Origin: Parasphingopyxis sp. CP4
GTDB taxonomy: Bacteria; Pseudomonadota; Alphaproteobacteria; Sphingomonadales; Sphingomonadaceae
Assembly: GCF_013378055.1 (NCBI RefSeq)
Contig: NZ_CP051130.1
Coordinates: 806,001-870,000 of the forward strand
DNA length: 64,000 nucleotides
Direction: 5' to 3'
Below the pieces are notes generated by a model, which was given only the letters and a program-made list of their open reading frames with translations, did no database searches and had not been told where the DNA came from. Each line of letters starts with the position of its first letter. Positions within the stretch are counted from its first letter, which is position 1. Shown in pieces: positions 10,774 to 39,207 of this stretch. A program made the translations under genes and the position numbers.

Positions 10774-11675
10774 GAAATAACCGGCCGGACTGGTCGATTC
10801 TGCTGTCGTTCCCGATAGAGCATGTAGAACCCGCTCGCGATGATTATCGCTGAACCGCACCATGTCGCCACGGTCGGGATGTCAGACCATATCAACCAGC
10901 CAAACCCAACGGCCCATAACAGCTGGGTGTAATCAAACGGCGCGACCACGACGACAGGCGCAACCCGCAATGAGGTAGTGAGCAGCATCTGCGCAGTTCC
11001 GCCGAAGAGCGCAATTGCCGCCAAGACCATCCATTCTTGTAGGCCATGGCTCGAGGCGAAGAAGGGAACGGCGATGCCTGTCGCAATTGCCGCGAGTAAG
11101 GTGAACCAGAAAACGGTCGTGATCGCACGCTCTGTCTTGCTGATCTGGCGGATGGTGATGATGACACAGGCTACGCCAAAGGCTGAAATCAATGCGACAA
11201 TTAGGCCATCCATTGGCAGGCTGCTGCCACCCGGTTGCATGACCACTAGTACGCCGATGAATCCTGTCAGAACGGCCACCCATCGATGCCAGCCAACCGC
11301 TTCAAGCATGAAGATCGCGGAAAGCATGGTAGCAAATACCGGGGCGGCGAAGCTAATGGCGGTAGCCTCTGCGAGTGGCAGCAGGCTGATCGCCCAATAG
11401 CCAAAACCCATTGCGAAAAGACCGATTATCGCTCGCCAGAGATGCGCGAGCGGAATATCTGTCTTGATCACGCCAAATCCTGGGCGGAGTGCGATCCAAA
11501 TCGTGAGCGGGATAAGGGCGAGAGCAAATCGCCAGAAGATCATCTCAATCGGATGCAGGCCGAGATCGGCACCAATCTTCACCATTACCGTCATGAACGC
11601 GAAAGCGGTTGCCGCAAGGATGCGCGCAACGATGCCGGCTATGGGCCGTTGTTCAGGCGGAGAACTGTCGGTCAA
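10770..11675 (-). CDS. EamA/DMT-family transporter
   Basis: A 301-residue, very hydrophobic protein with about ten predicted membrane helices in two EamA repeats, as in the drug/metabolite transporter superfamily. First-repeat signatures such as EMIFWRF and FAAPVFATMLS are visible, followed by a second repeat ending in MLYRER. The substrate is unknown; family members export amino acids, metabolites or drugs. The likely start is a TTG at 11675, since no ATG occurs before the first helix and the ribosome site is weak. Convergent with the leucine-dehydrogenase gene (CTAG overlap) and divergent from ccmC. Confidence 0.85.
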   Translation of the reverse strand: MTDSSPPEQRPIAGIVARILAATAFAFMTVMVKIGADLGLHPIEMIFWRFALALIPLTIWIALRPGFGVIKTDIPLAHLWRAIIGLFAMGFGYWAISLLPLAEATAISFAAPVFATMLSAIFMLEAVGWHRWVAVLTGFIGVLVVMQPGGSSLPMDGLIVALISAFGVACVIITIRQISKTERAITTVFWFTLLAAIATGIAVPFFASSHGLQEWMVLAAIALFGGTAQMLLTTSLRVAPVVVVAPFDYTQLLWAVGFGWLIWSDIPTVATWCGSAIIIASGFYMLYRERQQNRPVRPVIS

Positions 11676-11779
11676 TGGAAGGAAACTGATCCTGCAAGTG
11701 GTGAGGCGTTGAAAAACACCGGATGTGAGGTCGTCTTATGCTTTTCCCGGCACAGTTGCTACGCTAAGAAGCCCGTTCA

Positions 11780-12496
11780 ATGCACGTTTTCGCAAATCCT
11801 ACCCGCTTTCTATCGATCGCGCGCCCGCTGACACCGTGGCTGCTATGGGGCGGCCTCGCACTGACCAGTGCTGCGATCATCATGGGTCTCTATTATTCAC
11901 CACCGGACTTCCTTCAGGGCGAGTTGGTGCGGATCATGTATGTTCATGTACCCACGGCCTGGCTCGGAATGGGCGGTTGGACGGGCATTCTCATCGCCAG
12001 CTTGATGCAACTGATCTGGCGTCACCCGCTGGCCGGGATCGCCGCACGGGCAATTGCAGCACCCGGCGCGATGTTTACGGCGCTCTGTTTGCTGACCGGA
12101 TCGATCTGGGGTCGCCCCGCATGGGGCACATGGTGGATTTGGGATGGGCGGCTGACGTCTATGCTGGTTCTGCTGTTCCTCTATTTCGGATTCATGGCGC
12201 TATCCTCGGCGAGCGAGGAACGGGCGAGCATTAGCCGGGTCGCTGCGATCTTTGGTGTGATTGGCGCGATCAACCTTCCGATCATCCACTATTCGGTGAC
12301 ATGGTGGAACTCGCTTCATCAGCCGCAAAGCCTTACGCTGAGCGGCTCAGCCATCGATAGCTCCATGCTATGGCCGTTGGGGCTTGCAGTTATTGGATTT
12401 TCGATGCTTTTCGGCGCGATTGTCTTAATTAGAATGCGCGCGATCATCGCGGATGTTCGCATTGAAGCCCGTTTGCGCAGACTGGCTCAGGGATAA
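11780..12496 (+). CDS. ccmC: Haem exporter / cytochrome c maturation protein CcmC
   Basis: A 238-residue inner-membrane protein with about six helices and the tryptophan-rich WGRPAWGTWWIWD motif at 110-122, flanked by conserved His56 and a histidine in the loop IIHYSVTWWN. CcmC presents periplasmic haem for attachment to CcmE. It is the first gene of the ccm operon here; ccmA and ccmB are not next to it. ccmD begins 4 bases after its stop. Confidence 0.96.
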   Translation: MHVFANPTRFLSIARPLTPWLLWGGLALTSAAIIMGLYYSPPDFLQGELVRIMYVHVPTAWLGMGGWTGILIASLMQLIWRHPLAGIAARAIAAPGAMFTALCLLTGSIWGRPAWGTWWIWDGRLTSMLVLLFLYFGFMALSSASEERASISRVAAIFGVIGAINLPIIHYSVTWWNSLHQPQSLTLSGSAIDSSMLWPLGLAVIGFSMLFGAIVLIRMRAIIADVRIEARLRRLAQG

Positions 12497-12500
12497 CAGC

Positions 12501-12638
12501 ATGGAACCATGGCCTTTCATCATCGCAGCCTATGCGTGCACAATTGGCGGGACGGCGATCCTGACGATCTGGAGCATTGTGCGCATGCGCGCCAATGAAG
12601 CGCGTGCCGCAGCTTTGCGTGAGGAAAACCAGTCGTGA
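12501..12638 (+). CDS. ccmD: Haem exporter protein CcmD
   Basis: A 45-residue single-helix protein beginning MEPWPFIIAAYACTIGGT, followed by a basic stretch (VRMRANEARA), as in CcmD, which helps release haem-loaded CcmE from CcmC. The start ATG at 12501 lies 4 bases after ccmC. The stop TGA overlaps the GTG start of ccmE (GTGA). Confidence 0.92.
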   Translation: MEPWPFIIAAYACTIGGTAILTIWSIVRMRANEARAAALREENQS

Positions 12639-13066
12639 AGGCAAAGCATCAAAGGCTTACCCTGGCGATTATTGCGCTTGTCGCTGTTGTGGCCGCAGGT
12701 TTCCTTGCGCTGTTCGGGCTACGCGACAACGCATCGCTGTTCCGGACGCCATCAGAAATCGCAGCGGAACCGGTTCCCGCCGGCCAAGCATTTCGACTTG
12801 GCGGCATGGTAGCCAATGGCTCGATCACGGAGCAGCCAGACGGTGTTTCGATCCGCTTTATTGTTCAGGATGGCGAAGCGCAGGTACCGGTTATTTTTGC
12901 GGGGATCACGCCCAATCTGTTTCGCGAGAATTCCGGCGTTGTGGCAGAAGGTTCGATGAATGCGGATGGTGTGTTCGTCGCAGATAATATTCTCGCAAAG
13001 CATGATGAAAACTACATGCCCCCCGAACTGGCGGATATGGAGATGGCAGGGGATCCGCGCCAGTGA
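12635..13066 (+). CDS. ccmE: Cytochrome c maturation haem chaperone CcmE
   Basis: A 143-residue periplasmic haem chaperone with one N-terminal membrane anchor (about 8-28) and an OB-fold. The covalent haem ligand is His123 and Tyr127 follows, in AKHDENYMPPE, the family H-x-x-x-Y motif. The start is GTG at 12635 overlapping the ccmD stop. The end overlaps the GTG start of ccmF, so translation is probably coupled through the operon. Confidence 0.97.
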   Translation: MKAKHQRLTLAIIALVAVVAAGFLALFGLRDNASLFRTPSEIAAEPVPAGQAFRLGGMVANGSITEQPDGVSIRFIVQDGEAQVPVIFAGITPNLFRENSGVVAEGSMNADGVFVADNILAKHDENYMPPELADMEMAGDPRQ

Positions 13067-14988
13067 TCGCTGAAGCCGGACTGGTCGCACTCTGGCTTGC
13101 CGCTGCATTGTGCGGCTTGCAGCTCATATTCGGTATCATGGTCTTGCGGTCCCCAGACAGCAATATTGTTCAAGCGATCCGACCGATAGCGATCGTTCAA
13201 GGTCTGCTGACCGTCTTTGCCTTTGGCATGCTGGTCTGGCTCTTCATGGTCACCGATCTCTCCGTTGAGCTCGTGGCGGCCAATAGCCATTCGGATAAGC
13301 CGGCGCTTTATAAATTCTCCGGAACATGGGGAAACCATGAAGGCTCGATGCTCCTATGGGTAGCGATCCTTGCGGTATCGGGAGCCTTGGTGGCCGCATT
13401 CGAGAAAAGGCTGCGCGAAAAGACCTTAATGGCGACGCTCGCGGCACAAGCCGCAATTGGCATCGGCTTTTACGCCTTTCTCTTATTTGCCTCGAATCCC
13501 TTTGCGCGACTTGATCCCGCACCGGTTGAGGGTAGGGGGCTGAACCCACTGCTTCAGGATCCCGGTTTGGCCTTCCATCCGCCGACCTTGTACGTTGGAT
13601 ATGTCGGCATATCGATTGCCTTCTCCTTTGCGGTCGGCGCGCTCCTGACTCGCGATGTTGGCCCCACCTTTGCCCGGGCTATGCGGCCATGGGTGCTGGC
13701 CTCCTGGATCTTTCTCACGCTCGGTATCGCAGCCGGAAGTTATTGGGCTTATTACGAACTGGGCTGGGGTGGTTGGTGGTTCTGGGATCCAGTCGAAAAC
13801 GCATCGCTCATGCCCTGGCTCGCGGCAACTGCTTTGCTGCACTCTGTCACCGTTCTTGCGACCCGCGACGCATTGCGGGCCTGGACGATCATGTTGGCTG
13901 TAGTGGCCTTCTCCATGTCGATGATCGGGACATTCCTGGTACGCTCCGGTGTCTTGACCAGCGTGCACGCCTTTGCCGTAGATCCTCAACGCGGTTCGTT
14001 CATCCTCGCCTTGCTCGTCATTTATATCGGCGGAGCGCTGGCATTATATGCGATGCGGGTGAGTACGGTGCGTGAAGGCGCACAATTCGAATTCATGAGC
14101 AGAGAAGGTGCTCTGGTAGCGAACAATCTGCTCCTGTCCGCAGTTCTGGGAATCGTACTGGTTGGCACGCTCTATCCACTGGGCGTCGAAGCTGTCACCG
14201 GCGAACAATTGTCGGTCGGTCCTCCCTATTTCAATTCGACTGCTGGCCCGCTTGCGCTCATCCTCGTCGTCGCCATGGCAGTTGGACCGCTTTTGCGCTG
14301 GCGCCGCGATAGGTGGCGCAATGTAATGAGCCGCATTTCTATTCCCGTGCTCTTGGCATCGCTAGCGCTGATGGCGCTGGTGCTGGCGGCGTCGCCCATC
14401 GGGATATTGCCGATGCTGGGATTAATCCTCGCTGCCGGAGTGGCAGCAGCCAGCGTAGCGCCGCTGTGGAAACGCAATCTGCGACGCACCCCATTATTCA
14501 CCTACGGCATGGTCCTCGCCCATCTTGGGATCGCCGTCAGCATGGCCGGTATGGCCTTTGAAAGCGCCTTTACCGAAGAAGTACTGGTTGCCTCACGCCC
14601 CGGTGAAACGCATCAAGTTGGTCCATATTCCGTTACATTTGACGGTACGGTGCCCGTTGCCGGGCCGAACTGGACGGCAGTGGAAGGCGGTTTGACGGTG
14701 CAGCGTGGTGATGGCGAACCATTTACGCTCAACCCCCAATCACGCATGTTTTCTTCGCCCGTGACCGAAACGAGCGAGGCGGCCATCCAAACATCTTGGA
14801 ATGGGCAGCTATACACGGTGCTGGGCACCGGCGACGGCACCGGCCGATGGCAGTTGCGTCTCTGGTGGAAGCCATTTGTGACGTGGATCTGGTTTGGCGC
14901 GATACTGATCGCATTGGGCGGCTTGTTGTCGCTGATTGGCCGTGTCCGGAGAGAGCGACGCGCCATGGAACGTGAGGCCTGGGCATGA
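13063..14988 (+). CDS. ccmF: Cytochrome c haem lyase subunit CcmF
   Basis: A 641-residue polytopic membrane protein of the HCO/CcmF family, close to the usual 640-660 residues. The periplasmic WWD domain is seen as GWGGWWFWDPVENASLMPW around residue 235-250. With CcmH and CcmI it ligates haem to the CxxCH sites of apocytochromes c. It starts with GTG overlapping ccmE and ends with ATGA overlapping ccmG. Confidence 0.97.
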   Translation: MIAEAGLVALWLAAALCGLQLIFGIMVLRSPDSNIVQAIRPIAIVQGLLTVFAFGMLVWLFMVTDLSVELVAANSHSDKPALYKFSGTWGNHEGSMLLWVAILAVSGALVAAFEKRLREKTLMATLAAQAAIGIGFYAFLLFASNPFARLDPAPVEGRGLNPLLQDPGLAFHPPTLYVGYVGISIAFSFAVGALLTRDVGPTFARAMRPWVLASWIFLTLGIAAGSYWAYYELGWGGWWFWDPVENASLMPWLAATALLHSVTVLATRDALRAWTIMLAVVAFSMSMIGTFLVRSGVLTSVHAFAVDPQRGSFILALLVIYIGGALALYAMRVSTVREGAQFEFMSREGALVANNLLLSAVLGIVLVGTLYPLGVEAVTGEQLSVGPPYFNSTAGPLALILVVAMAVGPLLRWRRDRWRNVMSRISIPVLLASLALMALVLAASPIGILPMLGLILAAGVAAASVAPLWKRNLRRTPLFTYGMVLAHLGIAVSMAGMAFESAFTEEVLVASRPGETHQVGPYSVTFDGTVPVAGPNWTAVEGGLTVQRGDGEPFTLNPQSRMFSSPVTETSEAAIQTSWNGQLYTVLGTGDGTGRWQLRLWWKPFVTWIWFGAILIALGGLLSLIGRVRRERRAMEREAWA

Positions 14989-21603: not shown

Positions 21604-22572
21604 ATGGCCGAAACCCATCGCACGAAAATGCTTATCCTCGGATCCGGGCCTGCGGGCTTGTCCGCCGCCATCTATGCCGCACGCGCTGGCATGGACCCGA
21701 TTGTTGTCCAGGGCATCGAGCCTGGCGGACAGCTGACGACGACGACGGAAGTTGAGAATTATCCCGGCTTTGCCGATGTGATCCAGGGCCCTTGGCTCAT
21801 GGAACAGATGCAGAAACAGGCAGAAAACTGCGGCGCGAAGATGGTTTGGGACAGCATTGTCGATGTCGACCTCACCAAGCGCCCGTTCCGTATGACTGGC
21901 GATGGCGGGGATGAATATCTCGGTGATGTGCTGGTCATAGCGACTGGTGCTCAGGCCCGGTGGTTGGGCCTGGAAAGCGAAACTCTGTTACGCGGCAAGG
22001 GCCTTTCGGCCTGCGCGACATGCGATGGCTTCTTTTTCCGCGGCAAGAAGATTGCCGTAGTCGGCGGTGGCAACACGGCCGTCGAGGAAGCGCTATATCT
22101 CACCAATCACAGCGATGATGTGACCCTGATCCACCGTCGTGACGAATTGCGCGCCGAAAAAGTCCTGCAAGATCGGTTATTTGCGCATCCCAACATCACC
22201 GTGCTTTGGGATAAGACTGTGGATAAATTTGTGGGTGGCGGCGATCCGGAAGGGCTGGTCGCCATTGACCTCAAGGACACCAAGACCGACGAAATCACTC
22301 AGATTCCAGCAGAAGGCGGCTTTATTGCCATCGGCCATGATCCGGCGACGGCTCTGTTTAAGGGCCATCTCGAGCTGGATGAGGATAACTATATCAAGGT
22401 TGAGCCTGGCAGCACGCGAACCAGCGTGCCGGGAGTATTCGCGTGCGGCGATGTGATGGACAAGATTTATCGTCAGGCGGTCACGGCTGCTGGCACCGGC
22501 TGCATGGCCGCGCTCGATGCCGAGAAGTTCCTGGCTGAGACGGAATTCGAGTCGGAACTGGAAACGGCCTAG
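21604..22572 (+). CDS. trxB: Thioredoxin-disulphide reductase
   Basis: A 322-residue FAD/NADPH enzyme that reduces thioredoxin. The FAD motif GSGPAGLSAA is near the N-terminus, the redox-active CATC (Cys137, Cys140) lies in SACATCDGFFF, the NADPH motif is GGGNTAVEEA, and the C-terminal FAD contact is FACGDVMD. The start at 21604 gives the standard N-terminus. The final CTAG is shared with the convergent exosortase-associated hydrolase gene. Confidence 0.97.
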   Translation: MAETHRTKMLILGSGPAGLSAAIYAARAGMDPIVVQGIEPGGQLTTTTEVENYPGFADVIQGPWLMEQMQKQAENCGAKMVWDSIVDVDLTKRPFRMTGDGGDEYLGDVLVIATGAQARWLGLESETLLRGKGLSACATCDGFFFRGKKIAVVGGGNTAVEEALYLTNHSDDVTLIHRRDELRAEKVLQDRLFAHPNITVLWDKTVDKFVGGGDPEGLVAIDLKDTKTDEITQIPAEGGFIAIGHDPATALFKGHLELDEDNYIKVEPGSTRTSVPGVFACGDVMDKIYRQAVTAAGTGCMAALDAEKFLAETEFESELETA

Positions 22573-23387
22573 GCCTGCGCCTCAAACCCGTGCAGTGCTG
22601 TTAAGCAGCTTTGCAGCAACTGATCGAAATCACCGTCCCAGGCAAAGCTATGGGCGTCCGTATCAATCGTTTCGCTTGAGAAGCGGGATTGCTTGGCCTG
22701 TTCAGCCAGCGCACCGTTGCGCCATTCATCGGCAAAACCGATCGCAGTCGCGTCATCCTTTGCGAGAACGATATGCGCAGGTGCATCCGATGCTGCCATT
22801 GCCTGCGCGACGCGCTCGGCGAGACTGCCAGTGCTCTCACGCGGCTTGCTGATCTTGAGCAGGCCGGAGAGCGCCTTGCGATAGTTTACGCCGCCGGTCA
22901 GCAAACGCTTCCACCCATCAAGGCTCAGCAATTGATCGCGATAATGGCTCTTGATCGCAGCCGGCGGTGGCTCGTTGGCTGCAGCTTCGACAACCCATGG
23001 GTTCGCGAAGATCATGGCGTCTACGCCGCATTGTTCGTGATGAAGGCACAATGTCGTGGCGCCATCGCACAATCCGAAACCGACGATTGTCTGCACTGAT
23101 GGCGCATGCTCGCGAAATGCCGAAATCGCGGCGGCAAGGTCGGGCGCACTCTCTTCGAAACCTGGATCTTCGCCTGAACTGTCGCCAACGCCACGGCGAT
23201 CGTAGCGCATTACGGGATATCCGGCCGCTGCTAGGCCGCTTGCAAGTTGCGCAAATCCGCGATGCGCACCGAAACGGGTTTGACCGCCACCGGTGACAAT
23301 CACCACGCCAAGCGATGAATCCGCCTGATCCAGCGATCCGGCCAATATGTCATCGGCGCATTCAAAGGCGAATTGAGAGCGGGTCAT
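22569..23387 (-). CDS. Exosortase-A-associated alpha/beta hydrolase 1
   Basis: A 272-residue alpha/beta-hydrolase-fold protein of the type found with exosortase A (hydrolase 1). An oxyanion-type VTGGGQTRFG lies near residue 31, and RYDRRGVGDSSG follows. The nucleophile elbow is GLCDG with Cys107 in place of the usual serine. A C-terminal His (DAHSFAW) can complete a triad. The substrate is unknown. The start ATG at 23387 overlaps the stop of hydrolase 2 (ATGA); a GTG three codons earlier is possible. It is the last gene of the minus arm of the XrtA locus. Confidence 0.83.
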   Translation of the reverse strand: MTRSQFAFECADDILAGSLDQADSSLGVVIVTGGGQTRFGAHRGFAQLASGLAAAGYPVMRYDRRGVGDSSGEDPGFEESAPDLAAAISAFREHAPSVQTIVGFGLCDGATTLCLHHEQCGVDAMIFANPWVVEAAANEPPPAAIKSHYRDQLLSLDGWKRLLTGGVNYRKALSGLLKISKPRESTGSLAERVAQAMAASDAPAHIVLAKDDATAIGFADEWRNGALAEQAKQSRFSSETIDTDAHSFAWDGDFDQLLQSCLTALHGFEAQA

Positions 23388-24079
23388 CCGAGCCACTCCA
23401 CTATGTGCGCGACCAGCGTGTCGGTGAGCTCTGGTGACCCGGTCGGCTCCGCCCTACGCCAGAGTGGCGGGCCGACAATCACCGCATCGCTATCACCATG
23501 TTCCTTCTCGAGGCGAATGGTACTCACACGCTCGATCGGCTGTGGCTCTGCATCACGAATCGCACAGGCCAGATCGGCCGAGACAGGATATCCGCCGATG
23601 ATTGTCGGGCCGTCCGTGAAAACCGCCGCCTGTGCGGCGCTATCGAATGCAGCATCAGTAAGGCTGCGAGATCGGATGAGATCTCGAACAAGCCGTTTTC
23701 CGTCCACCGGCGAAAAGCGCATATGAGATGCGCCTTCAATGCCATCATCAATCAGGCATCCACCCCGGATTGCCAATACAGTCGTGGCAGTGGTGACAGC
23801 AGCCGCGTCCGCCACAGCCTGTCGCCAGTCATCCCACGCAATGTTAGTGAGTTCTACTTCGCTTTCACCCGTTGCCGGAAGATCTGGTAGATGCGTTGTA
23901 ATGCCGACCGCGGCCAGGGCGCGCATCGTATCCGAAATCAGTTTGCGGGTGCGGTTCAGTTCTTCGAGCAGCGGCGGAACGATCAGCAATTGCGTGCTGC
24001 TCGAATCCCCAAAGCTCATTATGGGATGGGATGTACCGCGCGATTCATAGCGCCAAAATCGCGGGGCAGCGGCGCTCAC
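23384..24079 (-). CDS. Exosortase-A-associated alpha/beta hydrolase 2-like protein
   Basis: A 231-residue protein resembling the second hydrolase of exosortase-A loci: LLIVPPLLEELNRTRK near residue 31, then LPDLPATGES. In the expected nucleophile region it reads LAIRGGCLIDDG with no G-x-S-x-G, so it may be non-catalytic or use another residue. It is shorter than typical alpha/beta hydrolases. ATGA overlaps join it to the ACP gene before it and hydrolase 1 after it, implying joint translation. Confidence 0.72.
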   Translation of the reverse strand: MSAAAPRFWRYESRGTSHPIMSFGDSSSTQLLIVPPLLEELNRTRKLISDTMRALAAVGITTHLPDLPATGESEVELTNIAWDDWRQAVADAAAVTTATTVLAIRGGCLIDDGIEGASHMRFSPVDGKRLVRDLIRSRSLTDAAFDSAAQAAVFTDGPTIIGGYPVSADLACAIRDAEPQPIERVSTIRLEKEHGDSDAVIVGPPLWRRAEPTGSPELTDTLVAHIVEWLG

Positions 24080-24348
24080 TGCAGGGCCTTTTCCTGGGTA
24101 AAGCGCAGCAAGTTGCCAAAGGTTTCGAGCATCTCTGCTTCGAATTCGTCATCTTCGATCCAGATGCCAAGGCGATCTTCGATCTCGGTCAGCAAGCCGG
24201 CGACGGCCATCGAGTCGAGCTCGGGTATCGCGCCAAACAGCTCGGTTTCACCGTTAAATTCGGCAACATCGGCTTCGTCGAGAGCCAATATATCGACCAG
24301 CACGGCACGAACCGTTTCTTCAACTTTCTCGGCAGCATCAGATGCCAT
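24076..24348 (-). CDS. Acyl carrier protein of the XrtA locus
   Basis: A 90-residue acidic four-helix protein. The phosphopantetheine attachment site is Ser46 in PELDSMAVAGLLTEIED, the D-S-M signature of acyl/peptidyl carrier proteins. The start at 24348 follows AGGGGA; longer readings upstream lack features. It should carry an acyl or aminoacyl group as thioester. Its neighbours are a GNAT-like transferase upstream and two hydrolases downstream, with an acyl-CoA ligase and a PLP decarboxylase in the divergent arm, so it is probably the carrier of that pathway rather than of fatty acid synthesis. Confidence 0.88.
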   Translation of the reverse strand: MASDAAEKVEETVRAVLVDILALDEADVAEFNGETELFGAIPELDSMAVAGLLTEIEDRLGIWIEDDEFEAEMLETFGNLLRFTQEKALQ

Positions 24349-24380
24349 GAAAATTCCCCTGCAAACCCGGATGCGCCCGC

Positions 24381-25382
24381 CTAATCGCTTGGCGCGCGGC
24401 GGACAAGTCCCGAAATCCATTGCTTTGCTAATGGCAACCAAGCCTCCGGCCGGCGCGGATTGTATAATGTGAGTGTGTAGAGCGGCTGCCGGCCATCCAT
24501 CCAATCGGCCTTATAGGGTTGATCCCCGGTTCCATAGTCGATGATTTTGGGGTGATCCTGCTCAATTATCTCGCGGAACATCGCCGCGCCAAGGATCGAG
24601 CCGGGTGAAAAAGACTTTGCATCTTCGCGATAGGCCAGCTTGTGGATGGTCGCCCGGCCATTCTCGACGGTCCAAAGCTGAGCAGCAACCGCTTGCCCAT
24701 CCTGATAGGCAACGCCAAGGCGCAGCGTTCCTGCATTGCCCTCGCGTTCAGCAAAGGCTTTCATGAAATCCCAGCTGCCTTCTTCCGGCTTCCAGCTATG
24801 GGCGTAGATCTCGCGATAATCCTGCCAGGCCTGGTCATCAAAGGACCGATGGATCTTGATATCGAGATTGGCCTTCTTGCCTTTGCGTTTCACGGTGCTT
24901 CGCAACTTACCGGGGCGGGCGGCCCAATAGTCGTCAAAGCTTGGCGGCGTGGCCAACTCCCATTTCTGGGTTGCGATTGATCGATAGACTTTCCAGCCAT
25001 TTGACCGAAAGGCCCGCTCAATGCGTTCGGGGTCTGCAATCGGGCCAAGGGATAATGACGCCATGTCGGCAAGCGAAGCTGCTAACTCCGCTGTCAAAGC
25101 GTCATTTTCACCATGACGGACGATGTCATATGCGAGGCTGTACCAGCTGGTCAGGGCTTCGGCGTGACGCCGACCCGTCTTGAAGAGAAACAGCCATGCA
25201 GCCGCATCGCCATCACGGGCCCGGGCAATGATCGGTGTGTGTCCTTCCGAACAATGTTCGGCGGTCGCGGCAAACCATTCAAATCGTTGGAATAGACATG
25301 GCTGATTGGCCCGGTCGAGCGCATCACCGGCATCGGCCGCTACATCGGCCAGGCTATCGAATAGCTTTACGTTAACGGTCAT
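24381..25382 (-). CDS. GNAT/FemAB-like acyltransferase of the XrtA locus
   Basis: A 333-residue soluble protein of the CelD/BcsL-type GNAT family. The duplicated GNAT fold shows CLFQRFEWFAATAEHC near residue 29 and the C-terminal QLWTVENGRATIHKLAYRED and IDYGTGDQPYKADWMD segments typical of the group. Such proteins transfer acyl or aminoacyl groups. The ACP gene lies 32 bases downstream, so a thioester donor on that ACP is plausible. It is the first gene of the minus arm, 59 bases from the divergent acyl-CoA ligase. Confidence 0.8.
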   Translation of the reverse strand: MTVNVKLFDSLADVAADAGDALDRANQPCLFQRFEWFAATAEHCSEGHTPIIARARDGDAAAWLFLFKTGRRHAEALTSWYSLAYDIVRHGENDALTAELAASLADMASLSLGPIADPERIERAFRSNGWKVYRSIATQKWELATPPSFDDYWAARPGKLRSTVKRKGKKANLDIKIHRSFDDQAWQDYREIYAHSWKPEEGSWDFMKAFAEREGNAGTLRLGVAYQDGQAVAAQLWTVENGRATIHKLAYREDAKSFSPGSILGAAMFREIIEQDHPKIIDYGTGDQPYKADWMDGRQPLYTLTLYNPRRPEAWLPLAKQWISGLVRRAPSD

Positions 25383-25441
25383 GACGCTATCCCGGTGGCA
25401 GCCGCGATGCGGCCCGTGACGCCATCATGTAATCGGAAGCC
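25383..25441. promoter_or_regulatory. Divergent intergenic control region of the two XrtA arms
   Basis: Only 59 bases separate the divergent start codons of the GNAT gene and the acyl-CoA ligase gene, so any promoters for both arms must overlap here or extend into coding sequence. I see no clear -35/-10 pair on either strand. Confidence 0.4.
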
Positions 25442-26950
25442 ATGACGAAAGCCTTAAATCCCGACCCAAGGCCAATCGATCATCTGCCATTATGTGGCGA
25501 AATGAATGATCTGGCGCTTGTCGACAAGCATGGCGAGCTCGATTTTGCGGGCTTGGAACGCGCCATAGGGGCCGTTGCCAGCTGGTTGGCGTCACAGGGC
25601 CTTGAAAGCGGTGACCGCGTGGCGTCTTGGCTCAACAAAACCCGCCTGGCCTGTCTGATGCCACTTGCAACAGCGCGAGCCGGTCTTGTCCACGTACCGG
25701 TCAATCCACTGCTTAAGCGTGCGCAGGTGGCGCATATCTTGGCTGACAGCGGCGCTAAGCTGCTGATTGCGGGCAAAGCACGTCTGAAATCGCTGGAAAA
25801 AGGGGATCTGGCGGAAAAATGCGTCGCGATCGAGGAGGATGAGGTGAGCATGTCTGGTGGGGCAATGGCACCATCAAGCGCCGATCCCGACAGTCTTGCC
25901 GCCATTCTCTACACATCTGGTTCGACTGGTCGCCCGAAAGGCGTGATGCTGAGCCATGCCAATATGTGGCTGGGAGCGGTGAGTGTCGCCCATTATCTGG
26001 GCGTCACGCGAAGCGATCGGAACCTGTGCGTGCTGCCATTGAGCTTTGACTATGGCCAAAATCAGCTATTCTCTAGCTGGCATGCCGGCGCATCAGTGAT
26101 ACCCTTCGATTATCTCATGCCCCGTGACGTCGCAAAGGCGGTTGGACGTCATAACGTCACAATATTGGCCGGAGTTCCGCCACTATGGGTGCAGCTAACC
26201 GAGATCGAGTGGTCGCCGGAAACCGCTGAAAAACTGAGAATATTGACCAATAGCGGCGGCAAGATGCCGGTACCGCTTGTGGAGGCAATGCGCAGGACAT
26301 TTACGGGTGCTGCCGTTCATTCCATGTACGGCCTAACCGAAGCATTTCGTTCGACGACATTGGATCCAGCGCTTATCGACAGCATGCCGGAAAGCATTGG
26401 CAAAGCCATCCCATTTGCCGAAATCATGGTTGTGGGCACCGATGGCAACGAAGCGGCGCCAGGTGAGGCTGGGGAATTGGTCCATGCTGGTCCACTAGTT
26501 GCTCTGGGATATTGGCAGGATCCGGAGCGGACGGCTCTACGGTTCAAGCCAGCACCAGAATATTCCGAATATGGCGGAATGGCCGTCTGGTCGGGCGATT
26601 CTGTTACCCGGGATGCCGAAGGGTATCTCAAATTTGTCGGCCGGGACGATGCGATGATTAAAAGCGCAGGCAACCGGATATCGCCGAGCGAATTAGAGGA
26701 CGCGGCGATCGAAAGCGGAGAAACGGCAGAAGCTTGCGCCTTTGGCGTAGCTGACGAGCGTCTCGGACAGGCCATAATTCTGGTTGTGCGGGGGGAGGGC
26801 GGCGATGCCGACGCCGCCTTGAAACGATTTCTCAAGGCGGAACTGCCAAATTTCATGCAACCAAGAGAAATAATCTGGCAATCAAAGTTACCACGTAATC
26901 CTAACGGTAAACTAGATCGTACTGAAATAGAACGGAAATGGGGCGAATGA
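25442..26950 (+). CDS. Acyl-CoA ligase (AMP-forming), exosortase-A-associated
   Basis: A 502-residue ANL-superfamily enzyme that adenylates a carboxylic acid and transfers it to CoA or a carrier protein. The AMP-binding P-loop YTSGSTGRPKG is at 157-167. The A5 region reads SMYGLTEAF, and the hinge is near FVGRDDAMIKSAGNRISP. The catalytic lysine is Lys490 in NPNGKLDR. The protein fits the exosortase-A ligase family. Its stop overlaps the start of the PLP decarboxylase (ATGA). With the ACP on the other arm, loading of the ACP is a reasonable inference. Confidence 0.88.
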   Translation: MTKALNPDPRPIDHLPLCGEMNDLALVDKHGELDFAGLERAIGAVASWLASQGLESGDRVASWLNKTRLACLMPLATARAGLVHVPVNPLLKRAQVAHILADSGAKLLIAGKARLKSLEKGDLAEKCVAIEEDEVSMSGGAMAPSSADPDSLAAILYTSGSTGRPKGVMLSHANMWLGAVSVAHYLGVTRSDRNLCVLPLSFDYGQNQLFSSWHAGASVIPFDYLMPRDVAKAVGRHNVTILAGVPPLWVQLTEIEWSPETAEKLRILTNSGGKMPVPLVEAMRRTFTGAAVHSMYGLTEAFRSTTLDPALIDSMPESIGKAIPFAEIMVVGTDGNEAAPGEAGELVHAGPLVALGYWQDPERTALRFKPAPEYSEYGGMAVWSGDSVTRDAEGYLKFVGRDDAMIKSAGNRISPSELEDAAIESGETAEACAFGVADERLGQAIILVVRGEGGDADAALKRFLKAELPNFMQPREIIWQSKLPRNPNGKLDRTEIERKWGE

Positions 26951-28194
26951 AACCGATTGGACCGATACCTATGGCCTTTGCGGACCAGCACGGGGAGCTG
27001 ACGATCGGCGGGCTATCCGTATCAGAGCTGGCGTCCAGCGCGGGGCAAACACCCTATTATGCCTATGATCTCGATCTCATCAGTGCGCAGGTTGAACGTT
27101 TCCGAAAGGCGATACCGGGCGAAGTTCATCTTCATTATGCGGTAAAGGCTAACCCGCATCCCGCTGTAATCCAACATCTAATGGAGCTCACTGACGGGTT
27201 GGACATGGCGTCGGGCGGCGAACTTGAGCGGGTGAGAGACTGTGGTGCTGATATGGCGCATGTCAGCTTTGCTGGGCCTGGTAAACGCGATCCGGAGCTG
27301 GAACTGGCCATTTCGCTGGGTGCAACGCTCAATCTGGAGTCCGAAAACGAGGCCAAGCGGGCGCTTGCGGCCGGCCAACGCCTTGGCATCACGCCGCGCC
27401 TTGCCGTGCGGGTGAATCCGGATTTTGAGCTAAAAGGCTCTGGGATGAGCATGGGGGGCGGCGCGAAACCCTTTGGTGTGGATCAGGATCGGGTTCCAGC
27501 GTTGGTGAAAGATATCATCTCTCAAGGCGCAGATTGGCGAGGGTTTCACATCTATTCCGGTTCACAATCTCTGGATGTCGATGCGATTGCAAATAGCCAA
27601 GAAGCCAGTATCGCTCTGGCAGCTGAACTTGCCCAAGCGATTGGAGAGCCACCCAAAACCGTGAATTTGGGAGGTGGCTTTGGAATTCCTTACACCGCCA
27701 ATGACACGCCCCTCGATGTCGAATCACTCGGAAAACGCCTTGAAACAGCGCTGAGCGGCCGCAAGCCAATTTTGGCCGATACCCAGTTTATGATTGAACT
27801 TGGTCGCTGGCTGGTGGGTGAAGCAGGAGTCTATGTTGCACAAATTCTCGATCGCAAACTGAGCAAGGACGAGCTTTTTCTCGTTACAGACGGTGGAATG
27901 CACCATCACTTGGCCGCATCCGGCAATTTCGGAATGGTGATGAAACGGAATTATCCGGTCGCTATTGCCTCACAAATGGGCGCTGAGCACACGGAATCTG
28001 CAACAATTGTGGGGCCATTATGCACACCACTAGACCGTTTAGCCGCGGATATTGGCGTTCCGCAGGCCGAGATCGGTGACTATGTCGCGGTCTTTGCATC
28101 CGGCGCTTATGGTTTAAGCGCAAGCCCCATTAACTTCCTCAGCCATCCGCACGCCGCCGAGATAGTGGTTAAGGGCGGAAAAGTAACCATTTAG
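26947..28194 (+). CDS. PLP-dependent decarboxylase, exosortase-A-associated
   Basis: A 415-residue fold-type III (LysA/ornithine decarboxylase-like) enzyme. PLP binds Lys67 in HYAVKANPHP, and the phosphate site is GGGFGIPY. HIYSGSQ and GPLCTPLDRL mark the catalytic face. It is expected to decarboxylate a basic amino acid or a related compound; the true substrate is not known. The ATG at 26947 overlaps the ligase stop and is preferred to an ATG three codons earlier. The following 111 bases separate it from the export genes. Confidence 0.88.
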   Translation: MKPIGPIPMAFADQHGELTIGGLSVSELASSAGQTPYYAYDLDLISAQVERFRKAIPGEVHLHYAVKANPHPAVIQHLMELTDGLDMASGGELERVRDCGADMAHVSFAGPGKRDPELELAISLGATLNLESENEAKRALAAGQRLGITPRLAVRVNPDFELKGSGMSMGGGAKPFGVDQDRVPALVKDIISQGADWRGFHIYSGSQSLDVDAIANSQEASIALAAELAQAIGEPPKTVNLGGGFGIPYTANDTPLDVESLGKRLETALSGRKPILADTQFMIELGRWLVGEAGVYVAQILDRKLSKDELFLVTDGGMHHHLAASGNFGMVMKRNYPVAIASQMGAEHTESATIVGPLCTPLDRLAADIGVPQAEIGDYVAVFASGAYGLSASPINFLSHPHAAEIVVKGGKVTI

Positions 28195-31450: not shown

Positions 31451-33082
31451 ATGACTTTCCTGTCTCATAAGGCTCAGTTCGCAAGCCTAGCGGCGGTTGC
31501 CGCCGGCATTGCGCTTGCCGTGCCGGGTGTCGCTGAAGCGCGAACCGAAATTTCGCCCTATATTGAAGTCCAACAGGTGCTCGACTTTGATTTGAGCGAT
31601 AATGATGCATTTGGCGACGATGTCGTTACCTATACCAGCGTTGCGGCAGGCGTAGACGCATCGATCGTCACCAATCGGATCGCTTTGGGCGCAAGCTATC
31701 GTTACGAGCGCCGCATCTCCTGGGATGACAATATTGCCGATGATGACATTCACAGTGGTGTCGTTCGCGCAGCTGCAACGATTACGCGCGGACTGAGCTT
31801 GGAAGCCGGTGCATTGGCTGCCCGGGCACGCACGGAAATTGGTGGTGACTCATTGACGTCACTTACCGGCGACAATGACAACAGCACCCAAGTTTACTCG
31901 CTTTATGCTGGACCGAGTTACAGCACGCGAACTGGACCATTGGATATCGCAGCCGGTTATCGCATCGCCTATAACCATGTCGAAGACAATTTCGCTGCGA
32001 ATACCGATCCAACGCAGCCGGCCGTCGATTATGTCGACCACAGCACCTATCATCAGGCCTATGCGAACGTTGGCAGCGCTCCGGGCGCCATGCTGCCCTT
32101 TGGCTGGGTCGTATCCGGCGGTTGGGAACGGGAAGATGCAAGCCAGCTCGATCAGCAATATGAAGCCTATTATGGCCGGTTAGACATCACGGTTCCGGTC
32201 ACGCCCACGCTCGCGCTCCTGGCCGGCGTTGGTTACGAAAGTATCGAGATCAGCCAGCGCGACGTTTTGGTCGACGCGAACGGCCAGCCAATTCTCGACA
32301 ATAACGGCCGGTTCCAGAGCGATCTGAACGCGCCACGGCTCCTCGCCTATGATGTGGATGAGGTGATCTACGATGCCGGTATCCTTTGGCGTCCCAGTCG
32401 CCGCCTCGAACTCTCGGCGCGGGTTGGTCATCGCTACGACACGACCATCTACAATGGCTATCTGACCTATCAAACGAGCACATCAAGCGCGCTGACGGCG
32501 TCGGTTTACAACAATATCAGCAGCTTTGGCCGGGGAACGACCAACACCCTCGCTGGCTTGCCGACCAATTTCACGCTCGGCGTGAATGGCTTTAGCCAGT
32601 TCAATGGCTGTGCATTCGGCGATGAAGGCGACGCTGGTGGGTGTTTCGACAACAACTTCCAGTCGCTTAACGCTTCCAACTTCCGCAGCCGCGGCGGCAG
32701 TCTTGTCTGGTCGGGCGGGCGCGGACCGTGGAGCTATGGCGTTGGTGCCGGCTATCAGAACCGCCGCTATTTTGCGCCGACGAACAATGCGACATTCTCG
32801 CTTGATCGCGTCACGGACGAGGCATACGCGCTCCAGGCCAATCTTGGATACACACTTTCGCCCAATTCGCAGCTCAGCGGTAACCTGTATGCGACCTGGT
32901 TCGAAACCGGAATTCCGGGCGAATCCGACGTATTCAGCACGGGCGGTTCAGCGACCTATAGCGTCGGCCTCTATCGCGGTCTCAGCGCACAGGCATCTGC
33001 CGGCATCTTTGCAAATGATGTCGAGGGTGAAGAAACGGATTGGCTGGCATCGATGCTGCTCGGCCTCAGATATGGATTTTAG
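31451..33082 (+). CDS. XrtA/PEP-CTERM-associated outer-membrane beta-barrel protein
   Basis: A 543-residue protein with a signal peptide (cleavage near AEA-R, residue 30). Repeated amphipathic strands rich in Tyr, Gly and Ser follow, and the C-terminus LLGLRYGF ends in the phenylalanine recognised by BAM. It matches the PEP-CTERM-system outer-membrane family. A role in polysaccharide passage or anchoring is inferred from position in the locus. Confidence 0.85.
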   Translation: MTFLSHKAQFASLAAVAAGIALAVPGVAEARTEISPYIEVQQVLDFDLSDNDAFGDDVVTYTSVAAGVDASIVTNRIALGASYRYERRISWDDNIADDDIHSGVVRAAATITRGLSLEAGALAARARTEIGGDSLTSLTGDNDNSTQVYSLYAGPSYSTRTGPLDIAAGYRIAYNHVEDNFAANTDPTQPAVDYVDHSTYHQAYANVGSAPGAMLPFGWVVSGGWEREDASQLDQQYEAYYGRLDITVPVTPTLALLAGVGYESIEISQRDVLVDANGQPILDNNGRFQSDLNAPRLLAYDVDEVIYDAGILWRPSRRLELSARVGHRYDTTIYNGYLTYQTSTSSALTASVYNNISSFGRGTTNTLAGLPTNFTLGVNGFSQFNGCAFGDEGDAGGCFDNNFQSLNASNFRSRGGSLVWSGGRGPWSYGVGAGYQNRRYFAPTNNATFSLDRVTDEAYALQANLGYTLSPNSQLSGNLYATWFETGIPGESDVFSTGGSATYSVGLYRGLSAQASAGIFANDVEGEETDWLASMLLGLRYGF

Positions 33083-36431: not shown

Positions 36432-37672
36432 TGGGTGATATCCTCTTTCTTGCGCATCGCATTCCGTATCCGCCCAACCGTGGAGACAAGATCCGTTCGT
36501 TCAACATCCTGAAACGGCTGTGTGTGCTTGGGACGGTGCATGTCGCGACCTTTGCCGATGATGATGAGGACCTTGCCCATGCCGAGGCGTTGCGAGGGAT
36601 GGTTGGCTCCTTGCACATCGAAAAACGCAGCGTGTCAAAGCCGGTGGGGGCAGCTCGTGCGCTGCTAACAGGCAAGCCAATCTCTCTGACGCTGTTTGAT
36701 AGCCAGGGCATCCGGTCCTTTGTTGACCAGGCGATCCAATCGAAATCCATCGACACGGTGTTCGTGTTTTCGGGTCAGATGGCGCAGTTCGTTCCTGACC
36801 TCGGGCCTGAAACGCGTTTCATCATGGATTTTGGTGACGTCGATTCTGCGAAATTCGCCTCTTATGCCAAAAGCGGCAATCCAGTGATGCGCTACGTGCA
36901 TGCGCGCGAAGCACGCCGATTGGCAGCATTTGAGGAGGCAACGGCAAAACGCGCCGACCATAGCCTTTTCGTGACGGACGCGGAGGCTCGCCTTTTTCGA
37001 TCCGCAACCCTGCTTGATGACCACAAGGTCCAATCGCTTGAAAATGGAATCGACTGCGACTTTTTCGATCCAGTCGCAGATTTTCCAAAACTGAGCACGG
37101 CTATCGGACCGCTTGTGATCTTCACAGGCCAGATGGATTATCGTCCGAACATCGATGCAGTGGTTAGTTTTGCCACTGAGGTAATGCCGACAATTCACGC
37201 ACATCATCCGCATGTGCAATTCGCCATTGTTGGCCGCAATCCGGCCCCCGAAGTTGAGGCGCTGGATCGCTTTGAAGGCGTGACGGTCACCGGCGCCGTC
37301 GATGAAATCCGTAGCTGGGTGGCCGCAGCAGACGTAGTAGTTGCGCCGCTTCGCATAGCCAGAGGTATTCAGAACAAGGTGCTGGAAGCGATGGCGATGG
37401 CGCGGCCTGTGGTCGCCTCACGCCTTGCCTTTGAGGGGATTGACGCGGTCCCGCAGCGCGATCTGCTGGTCGCCGATACTCCTGCGCAAGAGGCGGAACT
37501 GGTGGTGCAAGTCCTCAACAATGTCTCTGATGCAGATGCCATGGGACGCGCGGCAAGAAATCGCATGCTGGAACGCTATCGCTGGGATCGAACGCTTGCA
37601 CCGCTTGCCGGTCTCATCGGACGGGATGCTGCCAAAGACGAACCCAGGACCGCGGAAACGGTTTCTGTATGA
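36431..37672 (+). CDS. XrtA-system GT4 glycosyltransferase
   Basis: A 413-residue GT-B-fold glycosyltransferase. The N-terminus HRIPYPPNRGDKIRSFN is diagnostic of the PEP-CTERM-associated sugar transferase group. The C-terminal half shows VIFTGQMDYRPNIDAV, then VVAPLRIARGIQNKVLEAMAMARPVV, the donor-binding region of GT4 enzymes. It is cytoplasmic and probably adds a sugar to the lipid-linked repeat unit. The stop overlaps the xrtA start (ATGA). Confidence 0.9.
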   Translation: MGDILFLAHRIPYPPNRGDKIRSFNILKRLCVLGTVHVATFADDDEDLAHAEALRGMVGSLHIEKRSVSKPVGAARALLTGKPISLTLFDSQGIRSFVDQAIQSKSIDTVFVFSGQMAQFVPDLGPETRFIMDFGDVDSAKFASYAKSGNPVMRYVHAREARRLAAFEEATAKRADHSLFVTDAEARLFRSATLLDDHKVQSLENGIDCDFFDPVADFPKLSTAIGPLVIFTGQMDYRPNIDAVVSFATEVMPTIHAHHPHVQFAIVGRNPAPEVEALDRFEGVTVTGAVDEIRSWVAAADVVVAPLRIARGIQNKVLEAMAMARPVVASRLAFEGIDAVPQRDLLVADTPAQEAELVVQVLNNVSDADAMGRAARNRMLERYRWDRTLAPLAGLIGRDAAKDEPRTAETVSV

Positions 37673-39207
37673 CAGCATCGAGCGCTCTTGAACGGCCCGG
37701 CGATACGACATGGTCTGCCCAATGGCGGATCAGTTTAATCCTGCTCGGCGCCGCATTATTTGCGTTACTGGTCTTGTTCCGAAGCGACGTTCTCAGCATG
37801 GCGACTGTCTGGGTAAACAGCCCGACCTTCAACCATTGTCTCTTGATCGTACCGATTATCGGTTGGCTGATCTGGAACCGGCGGACCGAGCTGGCGCAAT
37901 TGACGCCGCAGGCATCGCTTTGGGGGCTTGTTCCAGTGGGCCTGGGCGCGGCGAGTTGGTTTGTTGGCGAAGCTGCCGGCGTAACGCTAGCCCGCCATCT
38001 CGGCATCATTGTCATGATGCAGGGCAGCGTGGTGACTATCCTCGGGATCACCGTCACGCGCGGTATCCTGTTTCCACTCGGTTATGCGCTGTTCCTTGTA
38101 CCATTTGGAGAGGAGTTCATTCCGGCTCTCCAGATGGTCACGGCAGATTTGTGCATGGCTTTGTTAGGTTTGTTCGGGTTGCCAGCGCATATGGAAGGCG
38201 TGTTCATCACTACCCCGTCCGGCTTTTTTGAAGTCGCCGAGGCCTGTTCCGGCGTGAAATTCCTGATCGCGATGCTGGCGCTGGGTGCGCTTGCGGCAAA
38301 TCTCTGCTTCAAGAGCTGGATACGGCGGAGCCTGTTCATGGCCATATGCTTTGTCGTGCCGATCATTGCGAACGGCATTCGCGCGTTCGGCACAATCTAT
38401 ATTGCTGATGCAACGGGAATCGAGTTTGCCGAAAGCTTCGATCATATCGTCTATGGCTGGTTCTTCTTCGCCATTGTCATCGCCATGATATTTGCAATGG
38501 CGTGGAAATTCTTCGATCGCGAGATTGATGATCCAGCTTTTGACCCCGCCGACCTGCAGACCGCACGGGCCTATAGCGCTGATAGCCCCACGCGCCGTTC
38601 GGCATTCGCGATCGGGATTATTGCGGTTGCCGCCGCACCGGTGCTTTGGCTGTCCATGGCATCGCCAGCACAAACCGCCATGCCGGAGCAATTTGCGCTC
38701 CCTACGGTAAATGGCTGGTCCATCGATACCGCTCCCATGCGTCGCGAATGGCAGGCAACCTATGTTGGAGCCGACCGGATAGTTGCGGGACGATATCGCA
38801 ACGCGCAGGGGCAAATTGTTGATCTGGCCATCGCTTACTATGCCGATCCCCGGGAAGGCTTTGAACCGGTTGGTATTGGCCAGGGGGGAATGCCGCTGGA
38901 AACCGAATGGTCCTGGGTCGAAGACAGTCAGGCTCCGGAAGGCGGCACAGCATACCGGATCATGGCACCTGGACCCGTGTCGCGTGAGGTTTTCCAATAT
39001 GTGATGGTTGGCGGTGCGCTCACAGGAAACAGTGTCGATGCAAAACTCGCAACTTTGCGCGCGCGCCTGTTTGGGACCGACCGGAGCGCTCAGGGCATAG
39101 TCATTTCTTCAGAAGACAATGACGCTCGCGCCGCTGTCGAGGCATTTGTCGCGGATAGCGGAGGCGTGGATCACCTGGTTGACCGCGTGATCGGCTTGGC
39201 CGACTGA
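37669..39207 (+). CDS. xrtA: Exosortase A fused to an EpsI domain
   Basis: A 512-residue protein with two parts. Residues about 20-290 are a polytopic exosortase with the catalytic triad Cys193 (EACSGVKF), Arg238 (NGIRAF) and His259 (DHIVYGW). Residues about 305-500 follow another membrane helix and form a periplasmic EpsI-type domain (GWSIDTAPMRREWQATYVGADR). Exosortase A cleaves PEP-CTERM proteins at the membrane. No PEP-CTERM substrate was recognised in this window. The amidotransferase follows 7 bases on. Confidence 0.95.
   Translation: MTASSALERPGDTTWSAQWRISLILLGAALFALLVLFRSDVLSMATVWVNSPTFNHCLLIVPIIGWLIWNRRTELAQLTPQASLWGLVPVGLGAASWFVGEAAGVTLARHLGIIVMMQGSVVTILGITVTRGILFPLGYALFLVPFGEEFIPALQMVTADLCMALLGLFGLPAHMEGVFITTPSGFFEVAEACSGVKFLIAMLALGALAANLCFKSWIRRSLFMAICFVVPIIANGIRAFGTIYIADATGIEFAESFDHIVYGWFFFAIVIAMIFAMAWKFFDREIDDPAFDPADLQTARAYSADSPTRRSAFAIGIIAVAAAPVLWLSMASPAQTAMPEQFALPTVNGWSIDTAPMRREWQATYVGADRIVAGRYRNAQGQIVDLAIAYYADPREGFEPVGIGQGGMPLETEWSWVEDSQAPEGGTAYRIMAPGPVSREVFQYVMVGGALTGNSVDAKLATLRARLFGTDRSAQGIVISSEDNDARAAVEAFVADSGGVDHLVDRVIGLAD

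Follow-up and report, generated by a model that had tools for sequence, protein, structure and literature searches.

Decarboxylation of an amino acid while it is bound to an acyl carrier protein (ACP) is known from several pathways of antibiotics and other secondary metabolites. BtrK of the butirosin pathway works on an aminoacyl-ACP, with glutamate as the substrate (L-glutamyl-[ACP] decarboxylase), and the loading enzyme of that pathway is of another type than the ligase described here. In the vicenistatin pathway, VinN, VinL and VinO comprise a stand-alone adenylation enzyme, an ACP and a pyridoxal phosphate (PLP) decarboxylase, VinO, for which thioester formation is required before decarboxylation; according to PMC11284099, VinN prefers 3-methylaspartate and takes L-Asp weakly, and the system makes a polyketide starter. 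The same logic is proposed for BolO, BolC and BolN of the bolagladin pathway of Burkholderia gladioli, where the beta-carboxyl of aspartate would be adenylated, a stand-alone ACP loaded and a BtrK-like decarboxylation carried out (PMC7756342). Here, we describe six genes in a stretch of 64,000 nucleotides from Parasphingopyxis sp. CP4 (contig NZ_CP051130.1, positions 806,001 to 870,000; the window), namely those of an AMP-forming ligase (LIG), an ACP, a PLP decarboxylase (DEC), a GNAT-like protein (GNAT) and two alpha/beta-fold proteins (hyd1 and hyd2), which lie in an exopolysaccharide locus of the exosortase XrtA.

The foremost new finding is that ACP, LIG and DEC, the core trio, behave like a substitute for PanD, the pyruvoyl aspartate 1-decarboxylase. 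The overall conversion predicted for the trio, from aspartate to beta-alanine, is that of PanD, which differs in being an unrelated protein that acts in one step, with no ATP and no carrier protein. Compared with the bolagladin system, which serves a secondary metabolite, the genes described here stand in an exopolysaccharide locus, are accompanied by hyd1 and hyd2, are conserved across a family and exclude PanD. The reading to which we incline is that the trio is a carrier-protein route to beta-alanine that stands in for PanD and is tapped by the XrtA locus. We infer that LIG would adenylate the beta-carboxyl of L-Asp and load the phosphopantetheine of ACP, so that Asp, ATP and ACP would give isoaspartyl-ACP and then beta-alanyl-ACP and CO2. 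In bacteria without PanD, the beta-alanyl unit, presumably released as free beta-alanine, would supply pantothenate and coenzyme A (CoA). A second module (hyd1 and hyd2, sometimes with the Fem-like GNAT), found mostly with XrtA, would use the Cys of hyd1 to move this same aminoacyl unit from ACP to an acceptor belonging to the XrtA/exopolysaccharide pathway.

All six genes were located at 22569-28194, as had been read from the sequence alone. The arrangement is divergent, with hyd1, hyd2, ACP and GNAT encoded on the minus strand and LIG and DEC on the plus strand:

25442-26950, plus strand: LIG, AMP-forming ligase (TIGR03098, 619.9 bits, cut-off 592.35)
26938-28194, plus strand: DEC, fold-type III PLP decarboxylase (TIGR03099, 555.5 bits, cut-off 478.45)
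24076-24348, minus strand: ACP, 90 amino acids (PP-binding PF00550, 20.5 bits, just below the cut-off of 20.8)
22569-23387, minus strand: hyd1, alpha/beta-fold protein (TIGR03100, 221.5 bits, cut-off 168.45)
23384-24079, minus strand: hyd2 (TIGR03101, 50.1 bits, far below the cut-off of 202.75; no Pfam match)
24381-25382, minus strand: GNAT (PF13480, 70.7 bits)
21607-22572, plus strand: trxB, thioredoxin reductase, a conserved outer neighbor given for context (TIGR01292, 385.7 bits)
37669-39207, plus strand: XrtA exosortase, given for context (TIGR03109, 332.1 bits, cut-off 208)

The E-values of these identifications go down to 1e-186, which excludes chance matches. The genes of hyd1 and hyd2 overlap by 4 bases, as do those of hyd2 and ACP, and those of LIG and DEC overlap by 13 bases. 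The remainder of the XrtA exopolysaccharide locus follows downstream, from an export gene at 28306 to an amidotransferase at 41122. An ACP-based pathway of activation and decarboxylation within an XrtA locus, as proposed by the sequence-only reading, finds support. Of the exosortase A families TIGR03098 to TIGR03101, LIG, DEC and hyd1 are members over the cut-off and hyd2 is not; the family names carry no chemistry. The view that the chemistry of this set is nowhere assigned holds for the sections consulted of openly licensed PubMed Central papers, where no assignment for the trio was found. Among the same papers, none combining exosortase and pantothenate was found, nor, by title, any transposon sequencing or essential-gene work on sphingomonads with pantothenate.

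Ligase, carrier protein and decarboxylase

Against all PDB sequences, DEC matched BtrK (7ru7/2j66), its closest solved relative, best with 258 bits, versus 164 bits for the best diaminopimelate decarboxylase. K70 and C362 are invariant in 12/12 aligned sequences, and the motif GPLCTP is the same as in BtrK, where LysA has GP.CE[S/T]. The difference between CTP and CE[S/T] would set the substrate of these decarboxylases. CTP was present in 129/129 rows of the DEC family (18 + 80 + 30 and the window, two rows being repeats) and CES or CET in 8/8 LysA sequences; the 22 relatives of DEC under the cut-off carry CTP (8), CTS (6), CTT (4) or CTG (4). A tree of 109 rows splits nine LysA sequences from DEC, BtrK and their relatives with 100 % support, the exact join of BtrK being weak (79-81 %, long branch). 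Score, motif and tree together predict that DEC is a BtrK-like aminoacyl-ACP alpha-decarboxylase. A diaminopimelate or ornithine decarboxylase was rejected on motif and tree. The nearest named relatives of DEC, from Parasphingopyxis, have 82-83 % identity.

Over its whole length, LIG matches adenylation domains of nonribosomal peptide synthetases best. Its PDB matches are linear gramicidin synthetase LgrA (253 bits, from two domains with 112 + 139), 8xjz (198 bits, two stretches) and VinN (3wvn, 185 bits, one stretch). For the substrate-pocket segment, VinN (3wv4) leads with 42.8 bits, only 0.5 bit ahead of the acyl-CoA ligase MenE with 42.3 bits. The pocket residues D203, S271 and R303 of LIG align with D230, S299 and R331 of VinN, positions counted on the alignment with a chain numbering offset by 16. 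These three residues are conserved in the vicenistatin system (PMC11284099) and are the same in BolO, which is proposed to use Asp (PMC7756342), and none of them is found in the pocket alignment of MenE. Among 138 ligase rows (136 distinct sequences), R303 occurs in 138/138; of the 137 rows without a gap at position 203, all have D203, and of the 137 without a gap at position 271, 136 have S or T. Of eight further AMP-ligase domains encoded in these loci, none has the D-S/T-R set. Four of the 29 ligases from loci without XrtA have F204 and four have A304. LIG is predicted to activate the side-chain carboxyl of aspartate or of a close acidic amino acid and to load ACP. A fatty acyl-CoA ligase was rejected on the pocket residues.

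The phosphopantetheine site of ACP, which had been pointed out as Ser46, is indeed the serine of the motif ELDS; together with Asp45 it is invariant in 19/19 aligned sequences. The ACP profile matches PDB 2lki (102.8 bits), an uncharacterized solved protein, and by this match the structure of the ACP family seems to have been solved already, as 2lki, with no function assigned.

The sequence-only reading had the set activate an acid and decarboxylate an amino acid. Both predicted activities find support. As for separate substrates, the trio matches the aminoacyl-ACP logic of BtrK, VinN/VinL/VinO and BolO/BolC/BolN, and by this analogy the acid and the amino acid are probably one and the same molecule. 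The names of the NCBIfam families suggest instead an acyl-CoA ligase and a decarboxylase of free amino acids (ornithine, diaminopimelate or arginine type) that make two separate building blocks, and the near equality of MenE and VinN in the pocket segment could be taken in the same sense. In a variant, the load of ACP would be a fatty acid, in the manner of N-acyl amino acid synthases, which, by the title of Craig et al. 2011, are reportedly linked to exosortases. Such an arrangement is highly improbable, since the ligase pocket keeps the amino-acid-binding Asp and the Arg for the second carboxylate, both absent from MenE, and DEC lacks the CE[S/T] motif of LysA and groups with BtrK and its relatives. 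Decarboxylation of an aminoacyl-ACP is, on these sequence features, the likely chemistry.

The identity of the amino acid is less firmly placed. LIG might follow butirosin biosynthesis and activate the gamma-carboxyl of glutamate, which would lead to gamma-aminobutyryl-ACP, or follow vicenistatin biosynthesis and activate 3-methylaspartate, which would lead to 3-aminoisobutyryl-ACP. This accords with glutamyl-ACP being the substrate of BtrK, the nearest solved decarboxylase, and with the preference of VinN, the top match in the pocket segment, for 3-methylaspartate (PMC11284099). VinN, however, also takes L-Asp weakly and BolO, proposed for Asp, has the same residues, and the complementarity with PanD described below points to beta-alanine, hence to aspartate. 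We consider a substrate other than aspartate improbable, and the conversion of aspartate to beta-alanine rather probable.

Distribution of the trio relative to PanD and XrtA

Two sets of genomes were searched, a phylum sample (n=299) and a family sample (n=149), with 9 genomes in common. PanD was identified by profile PF02261, and 128 genomes of the family sample bear DEC (124 over the cut-off and 4 truncated). PanD occurs in 6/149 genomes of the family sample, in 0/128 with DEC versus 6/21 without it (Fisher p 4e-6), and in 164/299 genomes of the phylum sample, in 0/19 with DEC over the cut-off versus 164/280 others (p 1e-7). The DEC genomes of the phylum sample that lie outside the family have no PanD either (0/6, p 0.006), nor do 12 further entries, two of them repeats. 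The five genera with PanD are all among the 15/96 genera that have a DEC-less member (p 5e-5), and within one genus (g200) a swap is seen, where G356 has DEC without PanD and G429 has PanD without DEC. The four PanD loci checked for the trio (L194-L197) lack it. This exclusion, absent from the sequence-only reading, points to a supply of beta-alanine.

The need for beta-alanine was followed through pantothenate synthetase, PanC. Among the family genomes that bear PanC, PanD or DEC is present in 132/142. Five DEC-less family genomes are also without PanC and thus need no beta-alanine for pantothenate, and two DEC genomes lack PanC (G327 and G386, 85 and 66 % complete). The PLP-type PanD (TIGR03799) was found over the cut-off in 0/149 family genomes (above 80 bits in 13 with DEC and 6 without) and was discarded as an explanation for the genomes without DEC.

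PanD is missing from most Alphaproteobacteria, and a replacement in which AmaB (PYD3) makes beta-alanine from uracil was shown in Rhizobium etli (PMC7142369). In the 19 Sphingomonadales rows of Table A2 of that paper, ADC and GAD are absent (0 each), PYD3 is found in 2 and PanC in 18. PanD is reported as absent from these rows, most of which have pantothenate synthetase, and no source of beta-alanine is shown for them in the sections of PMC7142369 consulted. If the trio is this source, a large family would, in most of its members, use the carrier-protein route of antibiotic pathways for primary metabolism, and a defined substrate would be given to a part of the exosortase system that is so far unexplained.

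The relation of the trio to XrtA was assessed with the 208-bit cut-off of TIGR03109, below which a genome is called XrtA-less. In the phylum sample, DEC over the cut-off was found in 19 genomes, XrtA in 20 and both in 17, with DEC alone in G107 and G155. The 18 DEC neighborhoods of this sample, to which the window adds a 19th, contain LIG in 17, ACP in 18, hyd1 and hyd2 in 16 and GNAT in 6 (one ACP and one hyd2 being added from a further scan). Among the best 80 of at least 595 GTDB loci (Sphingomonadales by title, two titled only Alphaproteobacteria), 62 are full-length, the other 18 being shorter than 21 kb and excluded. These 62 contain LIG in 62, ACP in 61, hyd1 and hyd2 in the same 55, GNAT in 38 and XrtA in 47. 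XrtA is over the cut-off in 96 genomes of the family sample, 95 of which have DEC.

The six genes had been read as one pathway inside the XrtA locus. A single XrtA module was contradicted by 33/128 DEC-bearing family genomes without XrtA over the cut-off. Weaker matches, to other exosortases, are present in 19 of the 33, and 14 have no XrtA-family match at all (five of them assigned by elimination). Loci were opened in 29 of the 33, G155, G320, G419 and G437 (incomplete) being left out; the 29 loci contain LIG in 29, ACP in 25, GNAT in 3 and, within about 6 kb of DEC, hyd1/hyd2 in 1 (L177). G155, seen as L041, has no hyd1/hyd2. Since XrtA-less loci keep the trio, a single XrtA-only unit of six genes is rejected, and the XrtA-only role implied by the names TIGR03098-TIGR03101 is not borne out for the trio. 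The sequence-only reading had held it against itself if the genes were to occur widely without xrtA and without one another. The former is the case for the trio; the latter is not, LIG and DEC being together in 29/29 XrtA-less loci.

In the window, the gene trxB is the immediate neighbor of hyd1, and in 28/48 XrtA loci the two are no more than 1.1 kb apart. In 16/29 XrtA-less loci, trxB directly adjoins ACP, with a gap of 11-308 bases, and marks the place where hyd1-hyd2 is missing in XrtA-less genomes. This indicates that hyd1/hyd2 is nearly always gone together with XrtA and the trio stays. L134, with XrtA-locus genes and no hyd1/hyd2, is an exception to this rule. At least 14 changes of the XrtA label are needed on the DEC tree, whose rows were selected by us, and well-supported branches force 8 of them. 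Other XrtA-locus genes stand beside the trio in 6/29 XrtA-less loci (L168, L173, L174, L176, L186 and L188; in L174 by a 24-bit match only). Four loci of the GTDB set without hyd1/hyd2 (L117, L128, L147 and L151) come from genomes in which no XrtA match was found anywhere; the neighbors are housekeeping genes in L117, L147 and L151 and an amidotransferase in L128.

These patterns bear on the proposal that the trio serves only to decorate exopolysaccharide. In that case the product would be an ACP loaded with a beta-aminoacyl or gamma-aminoacyl group (beta-alanyl, 3-aminoisobutyryl or gamma-aminobutyryl), which hyd1/hyd2 or the Fem-like GNAT would attach to an amino sugar in the polysaccharide linked to XrtA; CoA supply would not depend on the trio, and coincidence or shared descent would account for the PanD pattern. 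The presence of DEC in 95/96 XrtA-bearing family genomes and in 17/20 of the phylum sample, the tight operon structure, the resemblance of the GNAT fold to FemX and tRNA-dependent aminoacyl transferases, and the trio in two XrtA-less polysaccharide loci (L036 and L062, below) are what such a role would lead one to expect. We nevertheless hold it to be unlikely: DEC is kept in 33 family genomes without XrtA over the cut-off and in 14 without any match, hyd1/hyd2 in only one and other XrtA-locus genes in only six of the 29 loci opened, and three loci stand amid housekeeping genes. Moreover, the exclusion of PanD persists among the 53 XrtA-less family genomes alone, with PanD in 0/33 with DEC versus 6/20 without it (p 0.0017). 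A role of the trio in CoA supply is the side to which we lean, with some reserve.

Several observations weigh against this role. Ten PanC-bearing family genomes have neither PanD nor DEC; completeness is 94 % or less in three, G396 among them, and the others need another source of beta-alanine or are auxotrophs. Distant PLP decarboxylases (84-102 bits) are present in four of the ten (G329, G408, G436 and G439). In the phylum sample, 116/135 genomes without PanD are also without DEC over the cut-off, which shows that other routes to beta-alanine are common, and relatives of DEC under the cut-off occur alongside PanD in 5/11, a coexistence expected if those relatives serve other products. The statistics of PanD and DEC given above take each genome or genus as independent, with no correction for phylogeny. 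The transaminase AAM, counted as a possible source, is present in 13/19 Sphingomonadales rows (PMC7142369), and in the bolagladin pathway, the nearest precedent, a bolN mutant was not rescued by feeding beta-alanine, from which its authors rule out beta-alanine as an intermediate (PMC7756342), so that the unit there is not free. No releasing thioesterase was found after the trio in the XrtA-less loci opened, and in four of these 29 (L167, L170, L184 and L187) ACP is not beside the ligase and a search for an alternative ACP gave no candidate.

The coupling to XrtA also has features that a pure vitamin role does not predict or that depart from the division into two modules. Most family genomes hold the trio inside the XrtA locus. 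XrtA occurs without DEC in 3/20 genomes of the phylum sample (G007, G015 and G267) and in the family genome G396. Conversely, hyd1/hyd2 occurs without XrtA in L177, whose contig ends just past DEC, so that XrtA may be lost to assembly, and in L123 (metagenome-derived Sphingomonadaceae, G307) hyd1, hyd2, ACP, GNAT, LIG and DEC stand together with no XrtA-locus genes adjacent and no XrtA match in the genome. Two polysaccharide loci from genomes without an XrtA match contain the trio, L036 with GT2 and polysaccharide deacetylase and L062 with hexapeptide transferase, GT61 and export genes. The tie with MenE, the bolN feeding result and the exceptions L123 and L177 count against a PanD-replacing trio tapped by the XrtA locus, and the reading as a whole is one we favor only modestly.

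hyd1, hyd2 and GNAT as candidates for transfer

The sequence-only reading had named two alpha/beta-fold hydrolases. The fold was recovered, and the name hydrolase misleads, given that the nucleophile of hyd1 is a Cys and hyd2 has none. In hyd1, C107, D212 and H246 are invariant in 17/17 sequences, so that the nucleophile is Cys107 throughout and not Ser, and in the model (pLDDT 85.7) C107 sits at the nucleophile elbow between strand 100-106 and helix 108-120. The best fold match is GrgF (6lzh), which we take to be a Cys enzyme working on carrier-bound chains, followed by many Ser esterases; with 1081 chains matched at E <= 0.001, the fold match of hyd1 is not specific. On the XrtA branch, hyd1 may act as an aminoacyl transferase or as a thioesterase, its assignment as the XrtA-side transferase being tentative. 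For hyd2, no invariant Ser or Cys was found among 17 aligned sequences, where R105 is present in 17/17; with the elbow placed from sequence, it is a putative divergent alpha/beta-hydrolase-like partner that lacks a Ser/Cys nucleophile.

The model of GNAT (pLDDT 85.9) has as its top Foldseek matches the aminoacyl-tRNA-dependent peptide synthases Sba18/Sbb17 and FemX (TMq 0.62-0.65). By its modeled tandem GNAT fold, that of FemX, GNAT is a predicted aminoacyl transferase. It had been counted as part of the set, and it is present here; it is not a constant part, being found in 6/18 neighborhoods and 38/62 loci, so that GNAT is an optional member and is ruled out as a universal transferase.

We infer that hyd1/hyd2 would draw beta-alanyl units off ACP toward an XrtA-linked acceptor. 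That L036 and L062, from genomes without an XrtA match, are polysaccharide loci containing the trio speaks for a sugar acceptor. In other families, the genes between LIG, DEC and ACP (L033, L034, L046 and L048) include no shared transferase among those scanned. A wider proposal, which we consider very unlikely in its entirety, is that sphingomonads and some other PanD-less proteobacteria depend mainly on carrier-protein decarboxylation of Asp for the beta-alanine of CoA, that the XrtA system grew around this pathway, and that hyd1/hyd2 move beta-alanyl onto a lipid carrier or surface glycan, the free amine of which would be the exosortase acceptor for PEP-CTERM proteins. A parallel for an amine acceptor is that of archaeosortase and phosphatidylethanolamine.

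Additional observations were made on these loci. The outer membrane protein of the XrtA locus of the window (31451-33082) gives a weak match to TIGR03016 (31.6 bits, cut-off 90.85). In L128 (Sphingomonas rubra), the protein at 11267-13315 beside the trio is an amidotransferase of the XrtA type (TIGR03108, 696 bits, below the cut-off of 816.9), and such an amidotransferase also stands beside the trio in L173, L176 and L186, from genomes without XrtA over the cut-off. In G102, the best ligase match is at C1:1103960, 1.9 Mb from DEC, ACP, hyd1 and hyd2 (C1:3015562), which shows that the operon can be split. In G396 (L198, 8700-13200), XrtA is directly beside GNAT, ACP, hyd2 and hyd1, and LIG, DEC and the export genes between are missing, either by deletion or by an assembly fault. 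In L033 (11156-14341), from a proteobacterium of another family, LIG and DEC are separated by a VanZ/Wzy_C (O-antigen ligase-like) gene. A B12-binding radical SAM protein follows the LIG-DEC pair in L054 (11106-15520), which is perhaps a secondary-metabolite use of the cassette.

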